From positions 4,834,001 through 4,898,000 of the forward strand of contig NZ_CP132342.1 of assembly GCF_040529055.1 (NCBI RefSeq): a DNA stretch of 64,000 nt, in the 5' to 3' direction. Below the pieces are notes generated by a model. That model had not been told where the DNA came from. It made no database searches and saw nothing but the letters and a program-made list of their open reading frames with translations. Positions 36,318 through 43,385 of the stretch are shown here, piece after piece; the first letter of the stretch is position 1; the number at the start of each line of letters is the position of its first letter. The stretch comes from Xanthomonas sontii (lineage in GTDB: Bacteria; Pseudomonadota; Gammaproteobacteria; Xanthomonadales; Xanthomonadaceae). A program made the position numbers and the translations under genes.

Positions 36318-36510
36318 GCCGTGTTCGCGGCGACGCTGCCGCATCGACCGGCTCGGGCGCGGCCGGTTCGACCCAGATCCGCCGCCACACCCACGCCAGC
36401 GCTGCGCCGCTCTGCCCGCGCGCCACCGGCGCCCGGTAAGCCGCCTGCAGCTGCCTCGGCGCGATCGCCTCGCAGCCATCGCCGCACTGCCGCGCCACCG
36501 CGAAGTTGGA
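36318..36510 (-). pseudogene. remnant of the C-terminal part of the DUF457-type hydrolase gene
   Basis: The minus strand encodes NFAVARQCGDGCEAIAPRQL and then a segment very like the last 60 or so residues of the intact hydrolase at 38059-39132 (AAYRAPVARGQ is identical in both). The rest of the gene is missing. It marks the left edge of a tandem duplication and runs up to the end of the methyltransferase gene. Confidence 0.8.
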
Positions 36511-36635
36511 GTTGTCGCGCAAAGCCACTGTGCTGGCGATGCGGAGTTGGCTCGGCCAGCTCCAGAAGCCCGGATCAACCATGCGCCTGCACACCGGAAC
36601 AGTAGCGACACGGCCACATCCCCTGTTTGGTGAAA

Positions 36636-36657
36636 AGGCGTCCCGTCAGGAACGCCT
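36636..36657 (-). terminator. intrinsic terminator of secreted paralogue A
   Basis: On the minus strand AGGCGTTCC pairs with GGGACGCCT (one T-G pair) over a TGAC loop, then TTTTC. It lies 43 nt after the stop of the gene at 36701. Confidence 0.7.
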
Positions 36658-36700
36658 CCCTTCATCCGCACCGCCTGAAGCAGGCTTAGGGGGAACGCTA

Positions 36701-37384
36701 TTAGTAAGCGTAGAGCGGGAAATATCCTTGTGAAGCGAGCGCATGAAAGGCTGCGCGGGAGGTGGAAGCGCCCATTTCGCCGTCATGAAACACGAAGTAA
36801 CCCACTGCATCGCACGCTGCGACAATCGCCCAGCCCTTTTTCGGGTCCAGAGACGCAGCGTATTTCGATGCGGTGTCGACCGCAAATTTGGACCAGTAAC
36901 GCGCGGAGTGTCTGATCACGCTCAGCCCGCCCAGAACCAGCGCGCCATTCTTCGACGTTGGATCGAGCCGCGCAATGCCTTCCCGTTCCAATTCCTCGAA
37001 TTGCACCGCCGCCGCATCCAGGCCCTCGGCGTTCTGCACGATCTGATCCATTCGCACGATGAACGAGAACTCGTAGGCACTGAGCTGTTGGCGTAGCCCG
37101 GCCAGGTTTTCGGTCATCGGCCGGAGCGGATCGATGGCATCCAGCATGGGCTGCCGCGTGGCAATGAAGCGCTCCAGCGGCATCCCTGGGTTGTAGCCGC
37201 ACTTCTCGACCAGGACGGCGAGAATCTCGTCGGGTGAGGCTTTGGCATCCATCAAGCAGCCGAGGTACATGTTGTGCCGGATGCCCGCCTGGTCGATCGG
37301 GTTCTCGGCCGCCAGCACGGGGGCGGTACCGAAGGCACTGCCGACCAGGAGCGCGGCGGTTGCGACAAGAAGCTTTTTGTTCAT
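36701..37384 (-). CDS. secreted protein of unknown function, paralogue A
   Basis: A 227-residue protein with a signal peptide (MNKKLLVATAALL..., cut after VLAAE) and two cysteines early in the mature part (YLGCLMD, EKCGY). It is about 70% identical by eye to the product at 39303 up to residue 165 or so, sharing long runs such as RPMTENLAGLRQQLSAYE and EELEREGIARLDP. After YWSK the two differ, this one ending GYFPLYAY. I recognise no domain. It is the surviving gene of the degraded left copy of a duplicated cassette and has its own terminator. Confidence 0.75.
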   Translation of the reverse strand: MNKKLLVATAALLVGSAFGTAPVLAAENPIDQAGIRHNMYLGCLMDAKASPDEILAVLVEKCGYNPGMPLERFIATRQPMLDAIDPLRPMTENLAGLRQQLSAYEFSFIVRMDQIVQNAEGLDAAAVQFEELEREGIARLDPTSKNGALVLGGLSVIRHSARYWSKFAVDTASKYAASLDPKKGWAIVAACDAVGYFVFHDGEMGASTSRAAFHALASQGYFPLYAY

Positions 37385-37755
37385 CAACGTTCTCATGAAA
37401 TGGATGGAGGGTGGCCAAGATCTCCCGACGTTCCTGCGGAGGACCCAGGCGAGGCGACCACACCGCATCGGCACACGGCGCGATGCGACGGTTTCAGGCT
37501 AGGCAGATCTGCGGCGACGCACGAGGACGAAACCGGGTCGCGACGGGAACGAACCGGGTCGAATTGGCGAATCGATGGCACCGTCACCGCATCGCGCAAA
37601 CGTAGCCCTGGCTGCCGGCGGACATTCCATGATCGAAGAATCAATGCCTTGCGCCGATTCGTTCCCGATCCATCGCCGCGGATGCGCTGGAATCGCGGCG
37701 TCGCTGCAACGCGGCTGTTGCGCGCCTTGTGGTTAGGAAGCTCACCCACTCACCA
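37385..37755. other. duplicated non-coding spacer, left copy
   Basis: This stretch is alignable along most of its length with 39960-40321. Shared blocks include GCATCGGCACAC, TTCAGGCTAGGCAG (CCAGGCTAGGCAG on the right) and GGAACGAACCGGGTCG, ending with CGCGGATGCGCTGG. It presumably holds divergent promoters; no gene is seen. Confidence 0.7.
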
Positions 37756-38040
37756 GCGTCGCGTCGTCCATGCCGCGCTGGCCGCACCGCGGCCGCCGGC
37801 GCGCATTCCGTCGTCGCGGCCCTTCGAGCTTGCCGTTAGCCGCCCACGGGCACGACACCGCACCTACCGTCGGACTGCCGCCTGCAGCAGGATCACAAGC
37901 CGCAGGTGGTGACGAAGTTCGATTTCAACCGGGAATCACCGCGGCAGGTGATGGTCACGTGCGGGGCAGCCGGGCACGAGAAGTATGCGCCTAAGTTCTG
38001 GCAGCCAATGCCGCTTCGTGCGACTTGGCGCCGGCAATGA
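37756..38040 (+). pseudogene. broken copy of the small secreted protein gene at 40322
   Basis: The start codon is lost and an insert of about 30 nt lies in the signal-peptide region. The LPLAAHGHDT segment is then separated by a frameshift from KPQVVTKFDFN and RQVMVTCG. Matching residues in the intact gene are LPLIAHGHDT, EPEVVVKFDF and RQTMDKCG. Similarity ends about 20 nt before the next hydrolase stop, so the 3' half was lost at the duplication junction. Confidence 0.8.
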
Positions 38041-38058
38041 AGGCGCATCGCGCCGCGC

Positions 38059-39132
38059 TCAACGCGCCGCGGTAGGCACCTGAGCGCCGACCGGCGCGGG
38101 CGATGCCGGTTCGGTCCAGATCCGTTGCCACATCCGCGCCAACGCCGCACCAATCTGCCCACGTGCCACCGGCGCCCGGTACGCGGCCTGCAGCTGCCGC
38201 GGCGGTATCGCCGCCCAGCCGTCGCCCTGCTGTCGCGCCACCGCGAAGTTGAAGTTGTAGTCCGGCTCCAGGCCCATGCGCAGGTCGCTGAGCACCAGTT
38301 CGCCGTCCTTGACCTGCGCGCGCATGAAGCCGCGGTTGAACCACGTCAGGCGCTGCACCGCCGGCAGGTCGCGCACCTGCGCCAGCGCCTGGGTGTTGGA
38401 AGGATAGCCCTGGAAGCGCATCGGCCCGTGGTCGGCGACCAGCGAGCGCTCGCCGATCACGTAGCCGCTCGGGGTCATCGCCACCACCCGCCACAGCAGC
38501 GTGTTGAACGGCATCGGCACCGAGAAGCGCGGCGCCTGCGCCAGGCCCATCGCCGCCAGCGCGCGGTCGGCCTCGCGGTCGACCAGTTGCTTGGCCTGCA
38601 GCGACCAGCCCAGGTAGACACTGCTCAACAGCAGTCCGACCAGCAACGCCTGCTGCGCCACGCGCCGCGCGCGGGCGAACCAGGCGATGGCGCAGGCCAG
38701 CAGCAGCCACAGCGTGTAGACGGGATCGATGATGAACACGCTCGACCACATCGTCGGCGATGGCCGCAGCGGCCACCACAGCTGCGTGCCGTAGACGGTG
38801 AACGCATCCAGCAGCGGGTGGGTGATCAGCGCCAGCTGGATCGCCCAGAACCAGCGGTGTGGCGCTTCGGCCACGCGTCCATGGCCGAAGCGCCGGAACA
38901 GCCACCAGATCAGCCAGCCGAGCAACGGCAGCACGAACAGCGAATGGCTGACGCTGCGATGCACCGTCATCAGCGTCACCGGATCGCGGGTCAGCGGCAG
39001 CAGGATCAGCGCATCGAGATCCGGCAGGGTGCCGAGCGCGGCGCCGGCAAGCAGTGCCGCGCGCCGATGTGCGGCCGGGGCGATGGCGGCGGCAATGGCG
39101 CCGCCGAGCACGATCTGGGTGAGGGAATCCAT
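38059..39132 (-). CDS. DUF457/YdjM-type inner-membrane metal-dependent hydrolase
   Basis: A 357-residue protein with about five membrane helices in the N-terminal half. The motifs MDSLTQIVLG, LGTLPDLDAL, VHRSVSHSL and ITHPLLDAF supply the His/Asp metal ligands of the LexA-regulated membrane hydrolase family (DUF457). The C-terminal 150 residues are outside the membrane. The reaction is unknown. A TAGCAT hexamer sits 6 nt before the ATG. A remnant of a second copy lies at 36318-36510. Confidence 0.85.
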   Translation of the reverse strand: MDSLTQIVLGGAIAAAIAPAAHRRAALLAGAALGTLPDLDALILLPLTRDPVTLMTVHRSVSHSLFVLPLLGWLIWWLFRRFGHGRVAEAPHRWFWAIQLALITHPLLDAFTVYGTQLWWPLRPSPTMWSSVFIIDPVYTLWLLLACAIAWFARARRVAQQALLVGLLLSSVYLGWSLQAKQLVDREADRALAAMGLAQAPRFSVPMPFNTLLWRVVAMTPSGYVIGERSLVADHGPMRFQGYPSNTQALAQVRDLPAVQRLTWFNRGFMRAQVKDGELVLSDLRMGLEPDYNFNFAVARQQGDGWAAIPPRQLQAAYRAPVARGQIGAALARMWQRIWTEPASPAPVGAQVPTAAR

Positions 39133-39138
39133 CGGCCG

Positions 39139-39144
39139 ATGCTA
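39139..39144 (-). promoter_or_regulatory. candidate -10 of the DUF457 hydrolase gene, leaderless layout
   Basis: TAGCAT, then CGGCCG, then ATG on the minus strand. The layout is the same as at ubiH. Confidence 0.4.
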
Positions 39145-39245
39145 GCAGCGATGCGGCGATCGAGGCACAGCGGTAGCCGTGGCGGGCGTGCTGCGCCTTG
39201 ACGAGCGGATGGGCGAACACGCTCCACTACATGCCAAATAGAACA

Positions 39246-39273
39246 GGCAAGGCGCCCGCTGGGACGCCCTGCC
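39246..39273 (-). terminator. terminator hairpin of secreted paralogue B
   Basis: On the minus strand GGCAGGGCGTCC pairs with a nearly complementary GGGCGCCTTGCC, followed by a T-containing stretch. It lies 29 nt after the stop of the gene at 39303. Confidence 0.6.
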
Positions 39274-39302
39274 CTTCTTCATGCGCTGTTTGAATCAGCC
39301 GC

Positions 39303-39959
39303 TCACTTGAACCATCCGTGGACAACATTGGAGACGGTTGCCGCCACGCCGATGTTGCTTGAGAGCGCATAGCCGACCACGTCCGAGCCGATGGTGGCAA
39401 ACCACTTCCAGAAGCCCTTCTTCGAGGTAGCTCCGCCAGCGGTGGACTCCCCATGCTCGGCGGCATACTTGGACCAGTACTGCGTGGAGTGCCTGGCCAC
39501 GCTAAGCGCGCCCAGGACAAGCGCGCCATTCTTCGACTTGGGGTCGAGCCGCGCAATGCCTTCCCGCTCCAGTTCCTCGAACTGCAACGCCGCCGCGTCG
39601 AAGTCCTCGGCGTTCTGCACGATCTGGTCCATCCGCTCGATGAACGAGTATTCGTAGGCGCTGAGCTGCTGGCGCAGCCCGGCCAGGTTCTCGGTCATCG
39701 GCCGGGTCGGATCGACGCCATCGACGATGGGCTGCTGCGTGGCGACGAAGCGTTCCAGCGGCACGCCGGGGGCATAGCCGCACTTCTTGACCAGCAGGGT
39801 CAGCGCGTCTTCGGCCGTGGCATTCAGGTCCATCAGGCAGCCCAAGTACATGTTGTGCTGGATGCCAGCCTGGTCGACCGGGTTTTCGGCCGCCAGCGCA
39901 GGGGCGCCGACGACACTGCCCACCAGCAGAGCGGTTGCGACAAGGAACTTCTTCTTCAT
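39303..39959 (-). CDS. secreted protein of unknown function, paralogue B
   Basis: A 218-residue protein with a signal peptide (MKKKFLVATALLVGSVVG, cut after ALAAE). The mature N-terminal part matches paralogue A closely, including both cysteines (YLGCLMD, KKCGY). The C-terminus differs: a Gly/Ser-rich linker, then an aromatic and Gly-containing segment (KGFWKWFATIGSDVVGY) and a hydrophobic end. No domain is recognised. It lies upstream of the membrane hydrolase and divergent from a small secreted protein, in the intact right copy of the cassette. Confidence 0.75.
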   Translation of the reverse strand: MKKKFLVATALLVGSVVGAPALAAENPVDQAGIQHNMYLGCLMDLNATAEDALTLLVKKCGYAPGVPLERFVATQQPIVDGVDPTRPMTENLAGLRQQLSAYEYSFIERMDQIVQNAEDFDAAALQFEELEREGIARLDPKSKNGALVLGALSVARHSTQYWSKYAAEHGESTAGGATSKKGFWKWFATIGSDVVGYALSSNIGVAATVSNVVHGWFK

Positions 39960-40321
39960 GAGCGTTCTCTCGCTATATGGAAGGGATTGGAGATGGCTGG
40001 GGTGCGTGGATCGCCCCCGGGGGATGGCCACCGCCGCATCGGCACACGCTGCGATCCGGCGATTCCAGGCTAGGCAGCGCGTCGGCGTGGCACGAGGGCG
40101 AAGCCGGGCCGCCCACGGAACGAACCGGGTCGGATTGGCGACGCCGTGCCAGGCGGAGCGACTGCACGGTGGCGCGCCTCGCGCCTGCGGCACGGATGCC
40201 ACTGCCGAAAAATCAAGGCCTTAGGCGGATTTGTTCCCGGTCTATACCCGCGGATGCGCTGGCATCCGCGCCGCCGCCATTCGTAGGCTGCAGTCTCTTC
40301 TCTGCGCGTTGCGAGGTTCCG
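39960..40321. other. divergent spacer of the intact cassette
   Basis: This 362-nt region lies between paralogue B and the small secreted protein and is homologous to 37385-37755. It must hold two outward promoters. No RNA gene or reading frame with support was found. Confidence 0.6.
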
Positions 40322-40708
40322 ATGCCTGCCTGCCGTTCCGTCTTCCATGCCGCCCTTGCCGCGGCCCTGCTGACCTTGCCGCTGATCGCCCACGGCCACG
40401 ACACCCTGCCGCCGGACTGGTGCCTGGAGGAGAGCCAGGAACCGGAGGTGGTGGTGAAATTCGATTTCGACGGCGAGCAGTTGCGGCAGACGATGGACAA
40501 GTGCGGCGTGGTCGATAGCCACGAGCCGTACACCAATACGCTGAACACCATTGCAGCCTATTGCGAGGTGGTGGCGCCGTCGCGCTCGGCCAAGCCCATC
40601 GTGCTCGGCCCGACGACCTTCCTGGCACGCGACCACCACAGCGCCTACCGCATGGAGCAAGGCTTGAAGGGCGCCTGCGTGGTCTGCCCGGCCAAGCGCG
40701 GGCGCTGA
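40322..40708 (+). CDS. small secreted cysteine-containing protein
   Basis: A 128-residue protein with a signal peptide (cut after AHG, about residue 25). The mature part contains four cysteines (PDWCLEE, MDKCGVVD, AAYCEVV, ACVVC), a spacing suited to two disulfides in the periplasm or outside the cell. It is acidic near the start and basic at the end (CPAKRGR). No family is recognised. GAGGTT lies before the ATG. It is divergent from paralogue B, and a truncated, frameshifted copy stands at 37756-38040. Confidence 0.7.
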   Translation: MPACRSVFHAALAAALLTLPLIAHGHDTLPPDWCLEESQEPEVVVKFDFDGEQLRQTMDKCGVVDSHEPYTNTLNTIAAYCEVVAPSRSAKPIVLGPTTFLARDHHSAYRMEQGLKGACVVCPAKRGR

Positions 40709-40777: not shown

Positions 40778-42976
40778 TCAGCCGAGCGCGTCCCGGCGGG
40801 TGTAGGCCAGCACCGTGTCGATCCTCGACTGCAGGGCGGCGCGCGCCTCCGCCGACAGCTCTCCGCAGTGCGCGAGCACGAAATAGGCCGAGCGCAGCAC
40901 GTCCCGCCAGCGCGGGTTGCTAGGCAATTTGGAGACCGCCAGGTAGCGCTCCATCGCCCGCGCACGCAGGCGGCCGTCGTCGATGTTCACGCGCCAGATG
41001 CGGCTGCGCTCGGCCAACTCCAGGCGTCCGGTCGCGGTGGCGCGCTCCCAGGTGTCGATGACCGCCAGCATCAGGTCGACCAGCGCACGCCGGAAGGCAT
41101 CGCGCAACGCAGGCGCGGCGGCCTCCGCTGGCGTGTGCTCGGCCTGCGCGGTGTCCGCCACCGCGCCACGGTCGCGTTCCTGCAGGCCGAGGACGACCAG
41201 GCCATCGCCACCGCGCCAGGGCGTGAAGGTCACGGCGAGCGGCGTGCCATGCCGTGCGACGATCTCCAGGCGCTGCGCGGCGCTGTCCTCCATCCGCTCC
41301 AGCGCCGCCTGCAACGCCGGGCGGTCGCCCTTGGCAACGCAGGCGAACACCGGCTGCCCGACCGGTTCGGCGTCGTCCGCGCCGCCGAGCAGCAGGCGGC
41401 CGGCACGATTGGTGGCCAGGACCTGGCCTTCGGCATCGAGCAGGCACAGCGCGTCCTCGCGGCTGTCGAGCAGGGTCTGCAGCAGGCTGCGATCCTCGGC
41501 CAGCGCGTCCGCCTCTCGCCGATAGCGGGCCAGTTGCTCCTCGTGGCGGACCTGCCGTGCGGCTTGCAGCAAACGTTCGCGCTGGCGGCGACGCTGCAGC
41601 CACATCCAGAGGCCGAGCGCGGCGGCGACGCCGGACACCAATGCCAGCCACAGCAGCAACGTGCGTTGCCGCAGCTGGACCTGGCGCAGGCGGTTCTCGC
41701 TTTGCAGGGCATCGATGGTGCGCTGCTTTTCGGCGGTGTCGAAGCGGATCCGCAGCCAGTCCAACTGGCGATCGTGCTGCGCGCGTACCAGCGCCGCGGC
41801 CTCCGCATTCGCGCGCCGCAGCGTGGCGATGGCCGCCGCCGTCTCGCCACTGCTTTCCTGCAGCCGCGCCAACTCCTCCAGCAACGGCACCCGCACCGGA
41901 TCGCCGCCGGCGGCCGCTGCCAGCGCCGCGCGCAGGCGGGCCGCGGCGGCGGCCGCGTTGCCTTCGAGGCGGGCGGTCCGCGCCAGCTGCAATTGCAGCG
42001 CGGACGGCAGCGGCAGCGCCCATGCCTCGGCGAGCGCCAGCGCACTGGAACTCCAGCGCTGCGCCTGCGCGACGTCGCCGAGCGCCAATGCCGCGCGGAT
42101 CAGGCCATCGTGCACACGCAGTTCGTACACGCGGCGGCCCTGCGCCCGGTACACGGCAAGCGCCTCCTGCAGCCAGGCCAGCGCCTGCGGCGTGTCGCCG
42201 CTGTCAAGCGCCAGCTCGGCCATGGTTTCCTGCACGTGCGCGGCCTCGATGGCGTCGCCCTGCGCGCGGTTGGCGGCAAGCGCATCGCGGTAGTAACGCA
42301 TCGCGGTGTCGGACTCGCGCAGTTCGCGATACACGTCGGCGATATTGGTCAGCACGGACGCAGAGACCGCGCCGCGCGCGCGCTGGATGTCCAGGCTCAG
42401 CGTCAGGTTGCGCAGGGCGCCGCGAAAATCCCCGAGCCGGCGCAGCGCCGCACCGACGTTGTTCAGATCGCGCGCCTCGCCCATGCGGTCGTGCAGCGAG
42501 CGGGACAGCGTGGCCGCACACTCGAAGCGCGCCAGCGCCTGCGGCAGGCGTTCGCGGCGGAAATCGAGAATGCCGCGGCGGCGGGTGAGCTCGTAGCGCA
42601 AGCGCGCGCCGCCGGCATCGCCGAGGTTGGCCTGCGCGCAATCCAGCGCCTGTTCGGCGGCGTCGAAGCGGCCGCCATCGAGTTGCTGCTTGGCAAGTGC
42701 GAACAATGCCTCGACCCGCGCATCGCCCGCCGAGTGCGGCGTCGACACGCCCGCCTGCTGCACGCACAGCAGCGGATCGGGAAGCGGACGCGGCGCCGCA
42801 GGCTCCGCGCAGCCATAGATCGTGTTCTGCGCAATCGCGGCCGCGCTCGCCGCAAGCAGGACGCCCAGGCACGCCCATCGCAGGCATGTCCGCGGCCGCG
42901 TGCCAGGCGCGGTGACGTTCGCCTGGACGGAATCGCCAGAAACGCCGGACCCGACCAAGCCGAACCATGTCCCCAT
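40778..42976 (-). CDS. TPR-repeat membrane protein with PAS domain, possible sensor
   Basis: A 732-residue protein. A signal-like helix (about residues 30-49) leads to a periplasmic TPR region (about 85-390: NNVGAALRRLGDFRGALRN, TNIADVYRELRESDTAMRYY, AELALDSGDTPQALAWLQEAL). A membrane helix lies at about 439-462, followed by a short coiled coil and a PAS-like domain (about 500-610, DALCLLDAEGQVLATNRAGR). The last 90 residues (LAERSRIWRVNIDDGRLRARAME) form a domain I do not recognise. No kinase, GGDEF or HD-GYP motif is present. The ATG at 42976 is chosen because it lies close to the signal segment. Confidence 0.75.
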   Translation of the reverse strand: MGTWFGLVGSGVSGDSVQANVTAPGTRPRTCLRWACLGVLLAASAAAIAQNTIYGCAEPAAPRPLPDPLLCVQQAGVSTPHSAGDARVEALFALAKQQLDGGRFDAAEQALDCAQANLGDAGGARLRYELTRRRGILDFRRERLPQALARFECAATLSRSLHDRMGEARDLNNVGAALRRLGDFRGALRNLTLSLDIQRARGAVSASVLTNIADVYRELRESDTAMRYYRDALAANRAQGDAIEAAHVQETMAELALDSGDTPQALAWLQEALAVYRAQGRRVYELRVHDGLIRAALALGDVAQAQRWSSSALALAEAWALPLPSALQLQLARTARLEGNAAAAAARLRAALAAAAGGDPVRVPLLEELARLQESSGETAAAIATLRRANAEAAALVRAQHDRQLDWLRIRFDTAEKQRTIDALQSENRLRQVQLRQRTLLLWLALVSGVAAALGLWMWLQRRRQRERLLQAARQVRHEEQLARYRREADALAEDRSLLQTLLDSREDALCLLDAEGQVLATNRAGRLLLGGADDAEPVGQPVFACVAKGDRPALQAALERMEDSAAQRLEIVARHGTPLAVTFTPWRGGDGLVVLGLQERDRGAVADTAQAEHTPAEAAAPALRDAFRRALVDLMLAVIDTWERATATGRLELAERSRIWRVNIDDGRLRARAMERYLAVSKLPSNPRWRDVLRSAYFVLAHCGELSAEARAALQSRIDTVLAYTRRDALG

Positions 42977-43385
42977 GGATCTGCGCGACCGGCCGCACAA
43001 CGCCTTCCCTGGTTTCACTGTCTCCACAACTCCAGAACTGATCGGGATGCGGCGCACGCGCGCCGCAGCGACATGGATCAGCGTGAGGCCCGGGCGCGAA
43101 CGTGGGTTCCTGCCCGGGCATGTCGCGCCGACGCATCGCAGTAGACCCGATGCCACGGAAGCCGGGCAAGCGCGCGCGGTGGTGATGCACACCACACACG
43201 GGTCATCGTGGAATAGCGGTCACACCGCGTTCTACGCTTCCGTCCACTGCAGGGACGGCGGTGCCACGCCCAGGGCGATTCGCGACAAGGACACCTGCGG
43301 AGCGCGCAGGCGCGGCAGCAGTGGAACGCACGACCTGCCAGTCACGCGCCAGGCTGTGCAGCACCGCCTGGCACGATCGTCTGAT
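42977..43385. other. 409-nt gap upstream of the TPR-PAS gene
   Basis: No gene, repeat or hairpin of note was seen. An upstream in-frame extension of the TPR-PAS gene could read into it (to 43195), but it would put about 70 low-similarity residues before the signal segment. Confidence 0.4.

Follow-up and report, generated by a model that had tools for sequence, protein, structure and literature searches.

We analysed a repeated locus in a stretch of 64,000 nucleotides of the Xanthomonas sontii genome (contig NZ_CP132342.1, positions 4,834,001 to 4,898,000 of the forward strand; the window below is this whole stretch). A gene for a secreted protein (Sec), a divergent spacer and a gene for a small exported protein (Sm) occur twice in a row, with a hydrolase gene (Hyd) beside each secreted-protein gene and a gene for a putative membrane regulator (Tpr) beyond the right copy (Table 1). 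The initial annotation had described this region as the tandem duplication of a three-gene cassette (hydrolase, secreted protein, small secreted protein) with a decayed left copy. The duplication was borne out by blastn of positions 36318-38058 against 38059-40708, whose alignment falls into three colinear blocks, of 171 nt (83%), 839 columns (77%) and 151 (73%); the two marks of a tandem duplication, colinear homology and a boundary where one copy abuts the other, were both found. The right copy is intact, as described. In the left copy the hydrolase is reduced to 57 codons' worth of its 3' part, close to the 60 or so codons estimated earlier, and the secreted-protein gene, SecL, is open with 227 codons and its own terminator-like hairpin. 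The left small gene carries the insertion and frame changes that had been reported and lacks its 3' end, but the missing end probably marks the duplication junction, found in four species, and not later decay. The picture of a decayed left copy holds for the truncated hydrolase and the broken small gene, but the hydrolase remnant itself has remained open here, lying within a 182-aa open frame with no internal stop.

Table 1. Features of the repeated locus and its regulator gene (positions within the window)
Feature	Position	Strand	Remarks
Hyd'	36345..36515	-	Left hydrolase remnant, limited to the 3' part; truncation point common to three other species
Hairpin 3' of SecL	36615..36665	-	Terminator-like, with short T run
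SecL	36701..37384	-	Left secreted protein, 227 aa; tail end of YFPLYA type
Left spacer block 1	37519..37568	.	Two direct repeats of CGAA-CCGGGTCG type; 33-bp pattern at 37528-37560
Left spacer block 2	37638..37690	.	
Sm'	37770..~38040	+	Left small-gene remnant; 3' end fused to hydrolase 3' end, junction in four species
Hyd	38059..39132	-	Intact YdjM-family membrane protein (PF04307); resident neighbour, no cassette member
Hairpin 3' of SecR	39232..39290	-	Terminator
SecR	39303..39959	-	Right secreted protein, 218 aa; all-helical in AlphaFold2 model
Right spacer block 1	40090..40139	.	33-bp pattern at 40099-40131
Right spacer block 2	40210..40262	.	
Sm	40322..40708	+	Small secreted protein, 128 aa; predicted mature N-terminal His, conserved Cys, HH pair
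Tpr	40778..43195	-	TPR repeats, hydrophobic stretch (by eye), PAS, C-terminal ChiS-family DNA-binding domain at 40781-41098; true start probably well inside this open reading frame

The right hydrolase matched the YdjM family (E 9.7e-31), and SecL, SecR and Sm had no family match above the cut-off. Folding energies of the hairpins were -19.2 kcal/mol (z -2.5) behind SecL and -31.4 kcal/mol (z -3.9) behind SecR. The left hairpin was not among the sites of a consensus terminator scan, which gave no excess of terminator-like sites (3 found against 3.0 expected), and a promoter scan returned 0 sigma-70-like sites.

The unit that is conserved at this place differs from the one first proposed. In a genus sample of 20 genomes, own genome (G000) included, five relatives (G018, G005, G012, G007, G009) have the hydrolase alone: it is flanked by a tRNA-dihydrouridine synthase gene on one side and a metallophosphatase gene on the other, and nothing in the interval matches Sec, Sm or Tpr. 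All ten genus carriers have Sec, Sm and Tpr together at that place, on the side of the hydrolase towards the phosphatase gene, and in each of the ten fetched the block sits between the same two flanking genes. Luteimonas aquatica shows the same arrangement as the genus carriers, and Lysobacter antibioticus has Sec-Sm-Tpr at a place that lacks the hydrolase. Because the hydrolase occurs without Sec, Sm and Tpr, and these three without the hydrolase, the conserved cassette consists of the secreted protein, the small protein and the TPR-PAS regulator, and the hydrolase is only a resident neighbour. Two genomes without the cassette (G010 and G017; loci L103 and L104) have a hydrolase that is itself broken or nearly gone.

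The three cassette genes also keep company across the family. Searches of 247 Xanthomonadaceae genomes, drawn in each case, found Sec in 22, Sm in 37 and the C-terminal domain of Tpr in 39. Every one of the 37 Sm genomes was among the 39 with the Tpr domain, the remaining two being G096 (E 2.5e-4) and G182, and 21 of the 22 Sec genomes had both Sm and Tpr, the exception (G009) holding a Sec match of 40 residues only. Among loci fetched for their Sec or Sm content, not for Tpr, a convergent Tpr was next to the Sm frame in 50 of 60 cases and a divergent gene lay on its other side in 46; by a crude rule of our own, 36 of these 46 divergent neighbours have a signal-peptide-like start. The gene picking behind these counts missed Sm in three loci (L087, L096, L142) where other searches place it. 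Sec was inside the Sm-Tpr neighbourhood at 7 of 15 family loci outside the genus. A class-wide Sm search over 369 genomes found one genome besides our own, from the same order, and a scan of genome contigs returned 4 loci and was a dead end.

Variants of the arrangement were seen at several family loci. Two Sec genes lie close together at L149, L153 and L154 with no Sm or Tpr beside them, Sm and Tpr being elsewhere in the genome. Two successive Sm genes precede one Tpr at L185:6250-7283, L191:5072-6078 and L193:5292-6302, indicating that Sm too can duplicate. At L195:35-616 and L216:5598-6371, Sm is followed by a same-strand reading frame of 1144 aa in place of the convergent Tpr.

Tpr carries TPR repeats, the hydrophobic stretch, a PAS fold and then, at its extreme C-terminus behind these sensory domains, a ChiS-type domain; its last 106 residues match the DNA-binding domain of ChiS (PDB 7KPO) with a phmmer E of 2.2e-18 over 83 residues. 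According to the available part of PMC8092284, the ChiS domain is a cryptic helix-turn-helix variant found C-terminally in proteins with varied sensory domains, TPR included; TPR is among the associated domains in the legend of its Fig. 5A, and its section 10 names no function for TPR members. Of the ChiS R/K residues that this part of the source gives as critical, four of five align with R in Tpr (in one case replacing a K), and the fifth, R1068, which is poorly conserved, has D as its counterpart; the alignment is our own reading with inferred numbering, in which the residue printed as 'R0190' was taken as R1090. Tpr differs from ChiS in having TPR repeats as its outer sensory part and in being paired with Sm and a secreted cargo. 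A Pfam scan (E up to 0.1) found no histidine kinase or receiver domain in Tpr, and we therefore rejected the idea that Tpr is an orthologue of the hybrid kinase ChiS. Because a ChiS-type domain is combined with TPR and PAS parts and a hydrophobic stretch, Tpr should be a membrane one-component regulator, with DNA binding and membrane topology as predictions.

A candidate operator lies in the divergent spacers. Aligning 19 of them (10 right, 7 left, and those of Luteimonas and Lysobacter) revealed two conserved blocks, of which block 1 is recognisable in all 19 and weakest in Lysobacter. Mean pairwise identity among left spacers was 91% in block 1, 81% in block 2 and 77% in the rest, and among right spacers 84%, 86% and 69%, respectively. 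The 33-bp pattern of block 1, allowing up to 3 mismatches, occurs at 2 sites in the 5.02-Mb genome, both with 0 mismatches and standing before SecR and SecL; since the pattern was derived from these two sites, the count measures its rarity elsewhere and not a discovery. The reversed genome control gave 0 sites and 100 window shuffles gave none. The putative site of SecR has thus been kept in front of SecL as well, even though the Sm of the left copy is dead. In 44 other Sm spacers, a shorter TTCCCGG?T element was present in 13, against a mean of 2.9 in simple shuffles.

Sm is predicted to be exported and may be a metal protein. Ten diverse members with a mean identity of 33% share 11 invariant positions (H26, C34, C61, G62, C81, P97, H105, H106, Y109, C119 and C122). 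Column 26 of the Sm profile is His in 56 of 59 sequences and is preceded by A or G in 57 of 59, the pattern expected of a His exposed by signal peptidase, with the cleavage site predicted by eye and not by a signal-peptide program. Sm had no Pfam or solved-structure match, and its structural model was poor (predicted local confidence, pLDDT, 64.8) and yielded no fold match. As a comparison class for Sm we took the histidine-brace copper proteins, such as LPMO and CopC. The likeness to the copper histidine brace proteins treated in the available part of PMC10952591 lies in the predicted mature N-terminal His and the further conserved His of Sm; the families named there are DUF4198, DUF6702, Ang-1 and Ang-2. 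The consulted portion of a signal-strapping study (PMC12537917) gives His as the N-terminus of 2.6% of signal-cleaved proteins and considers such chains likely metalloproteins. Judged by these residues, Sm may bind metal.

The duplication is old. Full Sec genes were found in 10 of the 20 genus genomes, the same ten that have a full Sm; the initial annotation had suggested comparing copy numbers across relatives, and this comparison gave 1 to 4 Sec copies per carrier. In a Sec tree built from 21 genus genes plus those of Luteimonas and Lysobacter (23 in total), all 8 genes with the YFPLYA tail of SecL form one clade with an ultrafast bootstrap of 100, spread over 7 of the 10 carriers, and core DNA alone recovered this clade, again with a bootstrap of 100; many other nodes of the tree were weak. 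The truncation point of Hyd', 200 nt from the hydrolase 3' end, is common to G000, G019, G011 and the outer unit of G008, and the hydrolase remnant of G006 ends nearby (195). The junction between Sm' and the hydrolase 3' end is identical in G000, G019, G011 and G008. The duplication is therefore shared by several species and is not an event of this genome alone. Its simplest reading is one ancestral tandem duplication reaching from the hydrolase end into Sm. As four species have the same Sm'/hydrolase fusion, the Sm copy was probably born truncated; the hydrolase copy, again on the simplest reading, lost its 5' part later, yet before these species split. The genome G003 has an intact hydrolase, SecL, SecR and Sm with no remnant found, and no hydrolase remnant was found in G004; these differing layouts imply later rearrangement or loss. 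G013 and G014 each hold two R-type Sec genes and no L-type.

Two further observations concern the Sec copies of the genus. The locus of G008 (L090) records gene birth and death: along with four Sec genes it contains remnants of three units, and its hydrolase remnants form two sets. Short Sec-like fragments of about 40-55 residues occur at G009:C12:34954-35073 and G007:C1:3440086-3440244, in genomes otherwise without a Sec match.

SecL has been retained as an open gene. All 8 known copies of the SecL type, from 7 species, have an open frame. At 0.1 to 0.2 changes per site, a neutral gene would gain 1.7 to 3.4 new stops per lineage and escape them with a chance of 0.03 to 0.18 per lineage, an estimate that counts stops only and uses the SecL of G000 as its model. 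Nonsynonymous divergence (dN) was 0.056-0.081 for the SecL core against 0.075-0.245 for Hyd', and was lower for SecL in all six matched pairs from four genomes. Selection on SecL is likely; the grounds are that its frame is open in 7 species and that the spacer block has been retained, not the ratio of nonsynonymous to synonymous rates (omega). The earlier suggestion of selection on the surviving gene is accordingly upheld as far as retention, the open frames and the lower core dN go, with the omega test undecided.

The AlphaFold2 model of SecR is all-helical (pLDDT 87.5; predicted template modelling score, pTM, 0.83) with a tail of two high-confidence helices (pLDDT ~97) and gave no significant fold match. 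Sec tails are more hydrophobic than cores (median best 15-residue window, 1.67 against 0.97), and tail omega exceeds core omega in both the L and R types. Distant Sec relatives have Gly-rich tails; at least 3 GxxxG motifs occur in 25 of 103 tails, nearly all of them from these distant relatives, in a set that counts genus genes twice, and the SecL and SecR tails have 0. Sec presumably acts outside the cell.

Sec is not the only protein found in the divergent slot. Elsewhere the slot holds an apextrin-C-like protein (PF16977, E 0.0053, below the cut-off), a family of about 145 aa with the motif GGGYYGSAWY, a family of about 250-300 aa with LGCCRCLGG, or small proteins of about 100 aa; these non-Sec cargos had no Pfam match besides weak apextrin and PsbW ones. 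In G271 (L144:1244-11967), three Sm-Tpr cassettes stand in tandem with a different secreted protein in each divergent slot. The bacterial apextrin-C-like proteins, at L143:4595-5665 (weak Pfam match) and L144:9209-10204 (no match), resemble a domain of animal immune lectins, and animal ApeC domains bind the bacterial cell wall according to the part of PMC8361754 available to us.

We read the locus, with a probability of about 0.6, as one regulator cassette together with what is left of an old tandem duplication of part of it; SecL would be a second cargo of this regulator. Tpr would be a membrane-bound one-component transcription regulator with its TPR part outside and its PAS and ChiS-family domains inside, which would bind the conserved spacer block and switch the Sec cargo gene and Sm. 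In the exported Sm, the N-terminal His, the HH pair and the Cys probably serve to keep a metal or a fold in place, through which Sm would signal to the TPR part. The region duplicated in a common ancestor of several species would run from the hydrolase end through roughly two thirds of Sm; the extra hydrolase was truncated, and the extra Sm, born without its end, would have decayed. The extra Sec would have diverged, chiefly in the tail, while holding on to its operator, and would have been retained, probably through selection, as a second cargo.

Several observations weigh against this reading. The hypergeometric probabilities of 5e-42 and 9e-21 for the co-occurrence of Sm/Tpr and of Sec are uncorrected for kinship, 10 of the 60 Sm frames have no adjacent Tpr, and Sec lies apart from Sm and Tpr at 8 of 15 family loci outside the genus and also in G047, a member of another family. 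The GAA-CCGGGTC type of block 1 was found upstream in only 1 to 3 of 44 Sm spacers outside close relatives, and in G008 the hydrolase remnant of the inner unit is of another form (to 239, gapped). In the G019/G011 pair, dN of the SecL core and of the remnant is nearly equal (0.068 against 0.075). The codon models, by twice the log-likelihood difference (2dlnL) from omega = 1, gave 191.4 for the L core, 0.6 for the L tail, 311.5 for the R core and 93.8 for the R tail, so that the SecL tail is indistinguishable from neutral, unlike that of SecR. Core omega between SecL genes was 0.149-0.336 in all 28 pairs, but the hydrolase remnant, intended as the neutral control, failed in that role: Hyd' (4 sequences, 56 codons) had a best omega of about 0.15-0.2 and rejected omega = 1 (2dlnL ~39), almost like the intact hydrolases, with a best omega of about 0.1-0.15. 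Pairwise omega was 0.20-0.51 for remnants and 0.07-0.55 for intact hydrolases. The rejection of neutrality for the SecL core is therefore no proof of selection, and the substitution-ratio test put forward in the initial annotation cannot decide the question. The low omega of the remnants, near that of the intact gene, was seen in the window and in the same stretch of L088, L089 and L092.

This failed control lends something to the view that SecL is a relic not yet broken, whose open frame and spacer persist by chance or through recombination with other copies: omega cannot separate SecL from the remnant, the SecL tail omega is close to 1, Hyd' is likewise open in G000 and G019, and the left spacers of G000 and G011 are unusually similar (94%), which could reflect recombination. 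That view is very unlikely, since all eight L-type genes are open at the low neutral chance given above, the remnants in G011 (one stop) and G008 do carry stops, and the L and R types separate on core DNA. The left unit might instead have arrived by horizontal transfer beside a resident right unit, as the 64% protein identity of SecL and SecR, the long stem of the L clade and the G+C of the left unit (0.65, against 0.70 for the window) could indicate; however, the unit is colinear with the right one and in four species abuts the end of the hydrolase, both to be expected of a tandem duplication, and the constant flanking genes of the ten carriers also speak for a local origin, which makes transfer quite improbable. 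The scatter of Sec at family loci and the several unrelated kinds of cargo would fit Sm and Tpr travelling together for a reason of their own, such as metal homeostasis, with the secreted genes as unrelated passengers. We consider this improbable, given that Sm and Tpr are present in each of the 21 genomes whose Sec match is longer than a fragment (against 37 of 247 overall), that most Sm frames have a divergent, mostly signal-peptide-like neighbour, and that the operator-like block is kept before the left Sec despite a dead Sm.

It is rather unlikely that the Secs are secreted antibacterial proteins whose conserved helical body carries a variable hydrophobic C-terminal hairpin into target membranes and whose gene multiplies and diversifies in the manner of interbacterial weapons, with Sm as immunity or maturation partner. 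The hydrophobic tails, the GxxxG motifs of distant relatives, the variable copy number and the faster-evolving tails of both types would suit such a role, and Sec may be membrane-active or antibacterial. The repeated GxxxG in the Gly-rich tails of distant relatives recalls glycine-zipper bacteriocins such as CdzC and CdzD (compare PMC5380434). The Secs of the window differ from these in having a Sec-type signal-like start, a helical body of about 140 residues and no GxxxG in either tail, and we therefore rejected their membership in that class. The confident tail helices of the SecR model suggest packing on the body, G008 has one intact Sm for four Sec genes, unlike the one immunity gene per toxin of such systems, PADLOC gave a single weak match, and no immunity gene was recognised for Sec as a bacteriocin.

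We favour the reading of SecL as a second cargo under the cassette's regulator. The initial annotation was probably right about selection on the survivor, and the two Sec genes of the repeat are old paralogues within what we read as a modular system of regulator and cargo. More broadly, and tentatively, at somewhat under even odds, we propose for the Xanthomonadaceae a modular system in which a TPR-PAS-ChiS-type membrane one-component regulator and its regular partner, an exported protein with an N-terminal His, control interchangeable divergent secreted proteins (Sec, apextrin-C-like proteins and at least two other families); tandem cassettes would swap cargo, and here a second cargo would have been gained by duplication. 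No paper on this cassette was found by title or abstract, in a search that covered subscription journals thinly. The tight genetic partner, the candidate operator and the candidate output genes make one orphan ChiS-type architecture directly testable. The locus also suggests a route to a second secreted cargo, in which the duplicated neighbours are lost but the cargo gene stays, together with its operator block. If the modular system is real, one bacterium can hold several sensor-cargo pairs.

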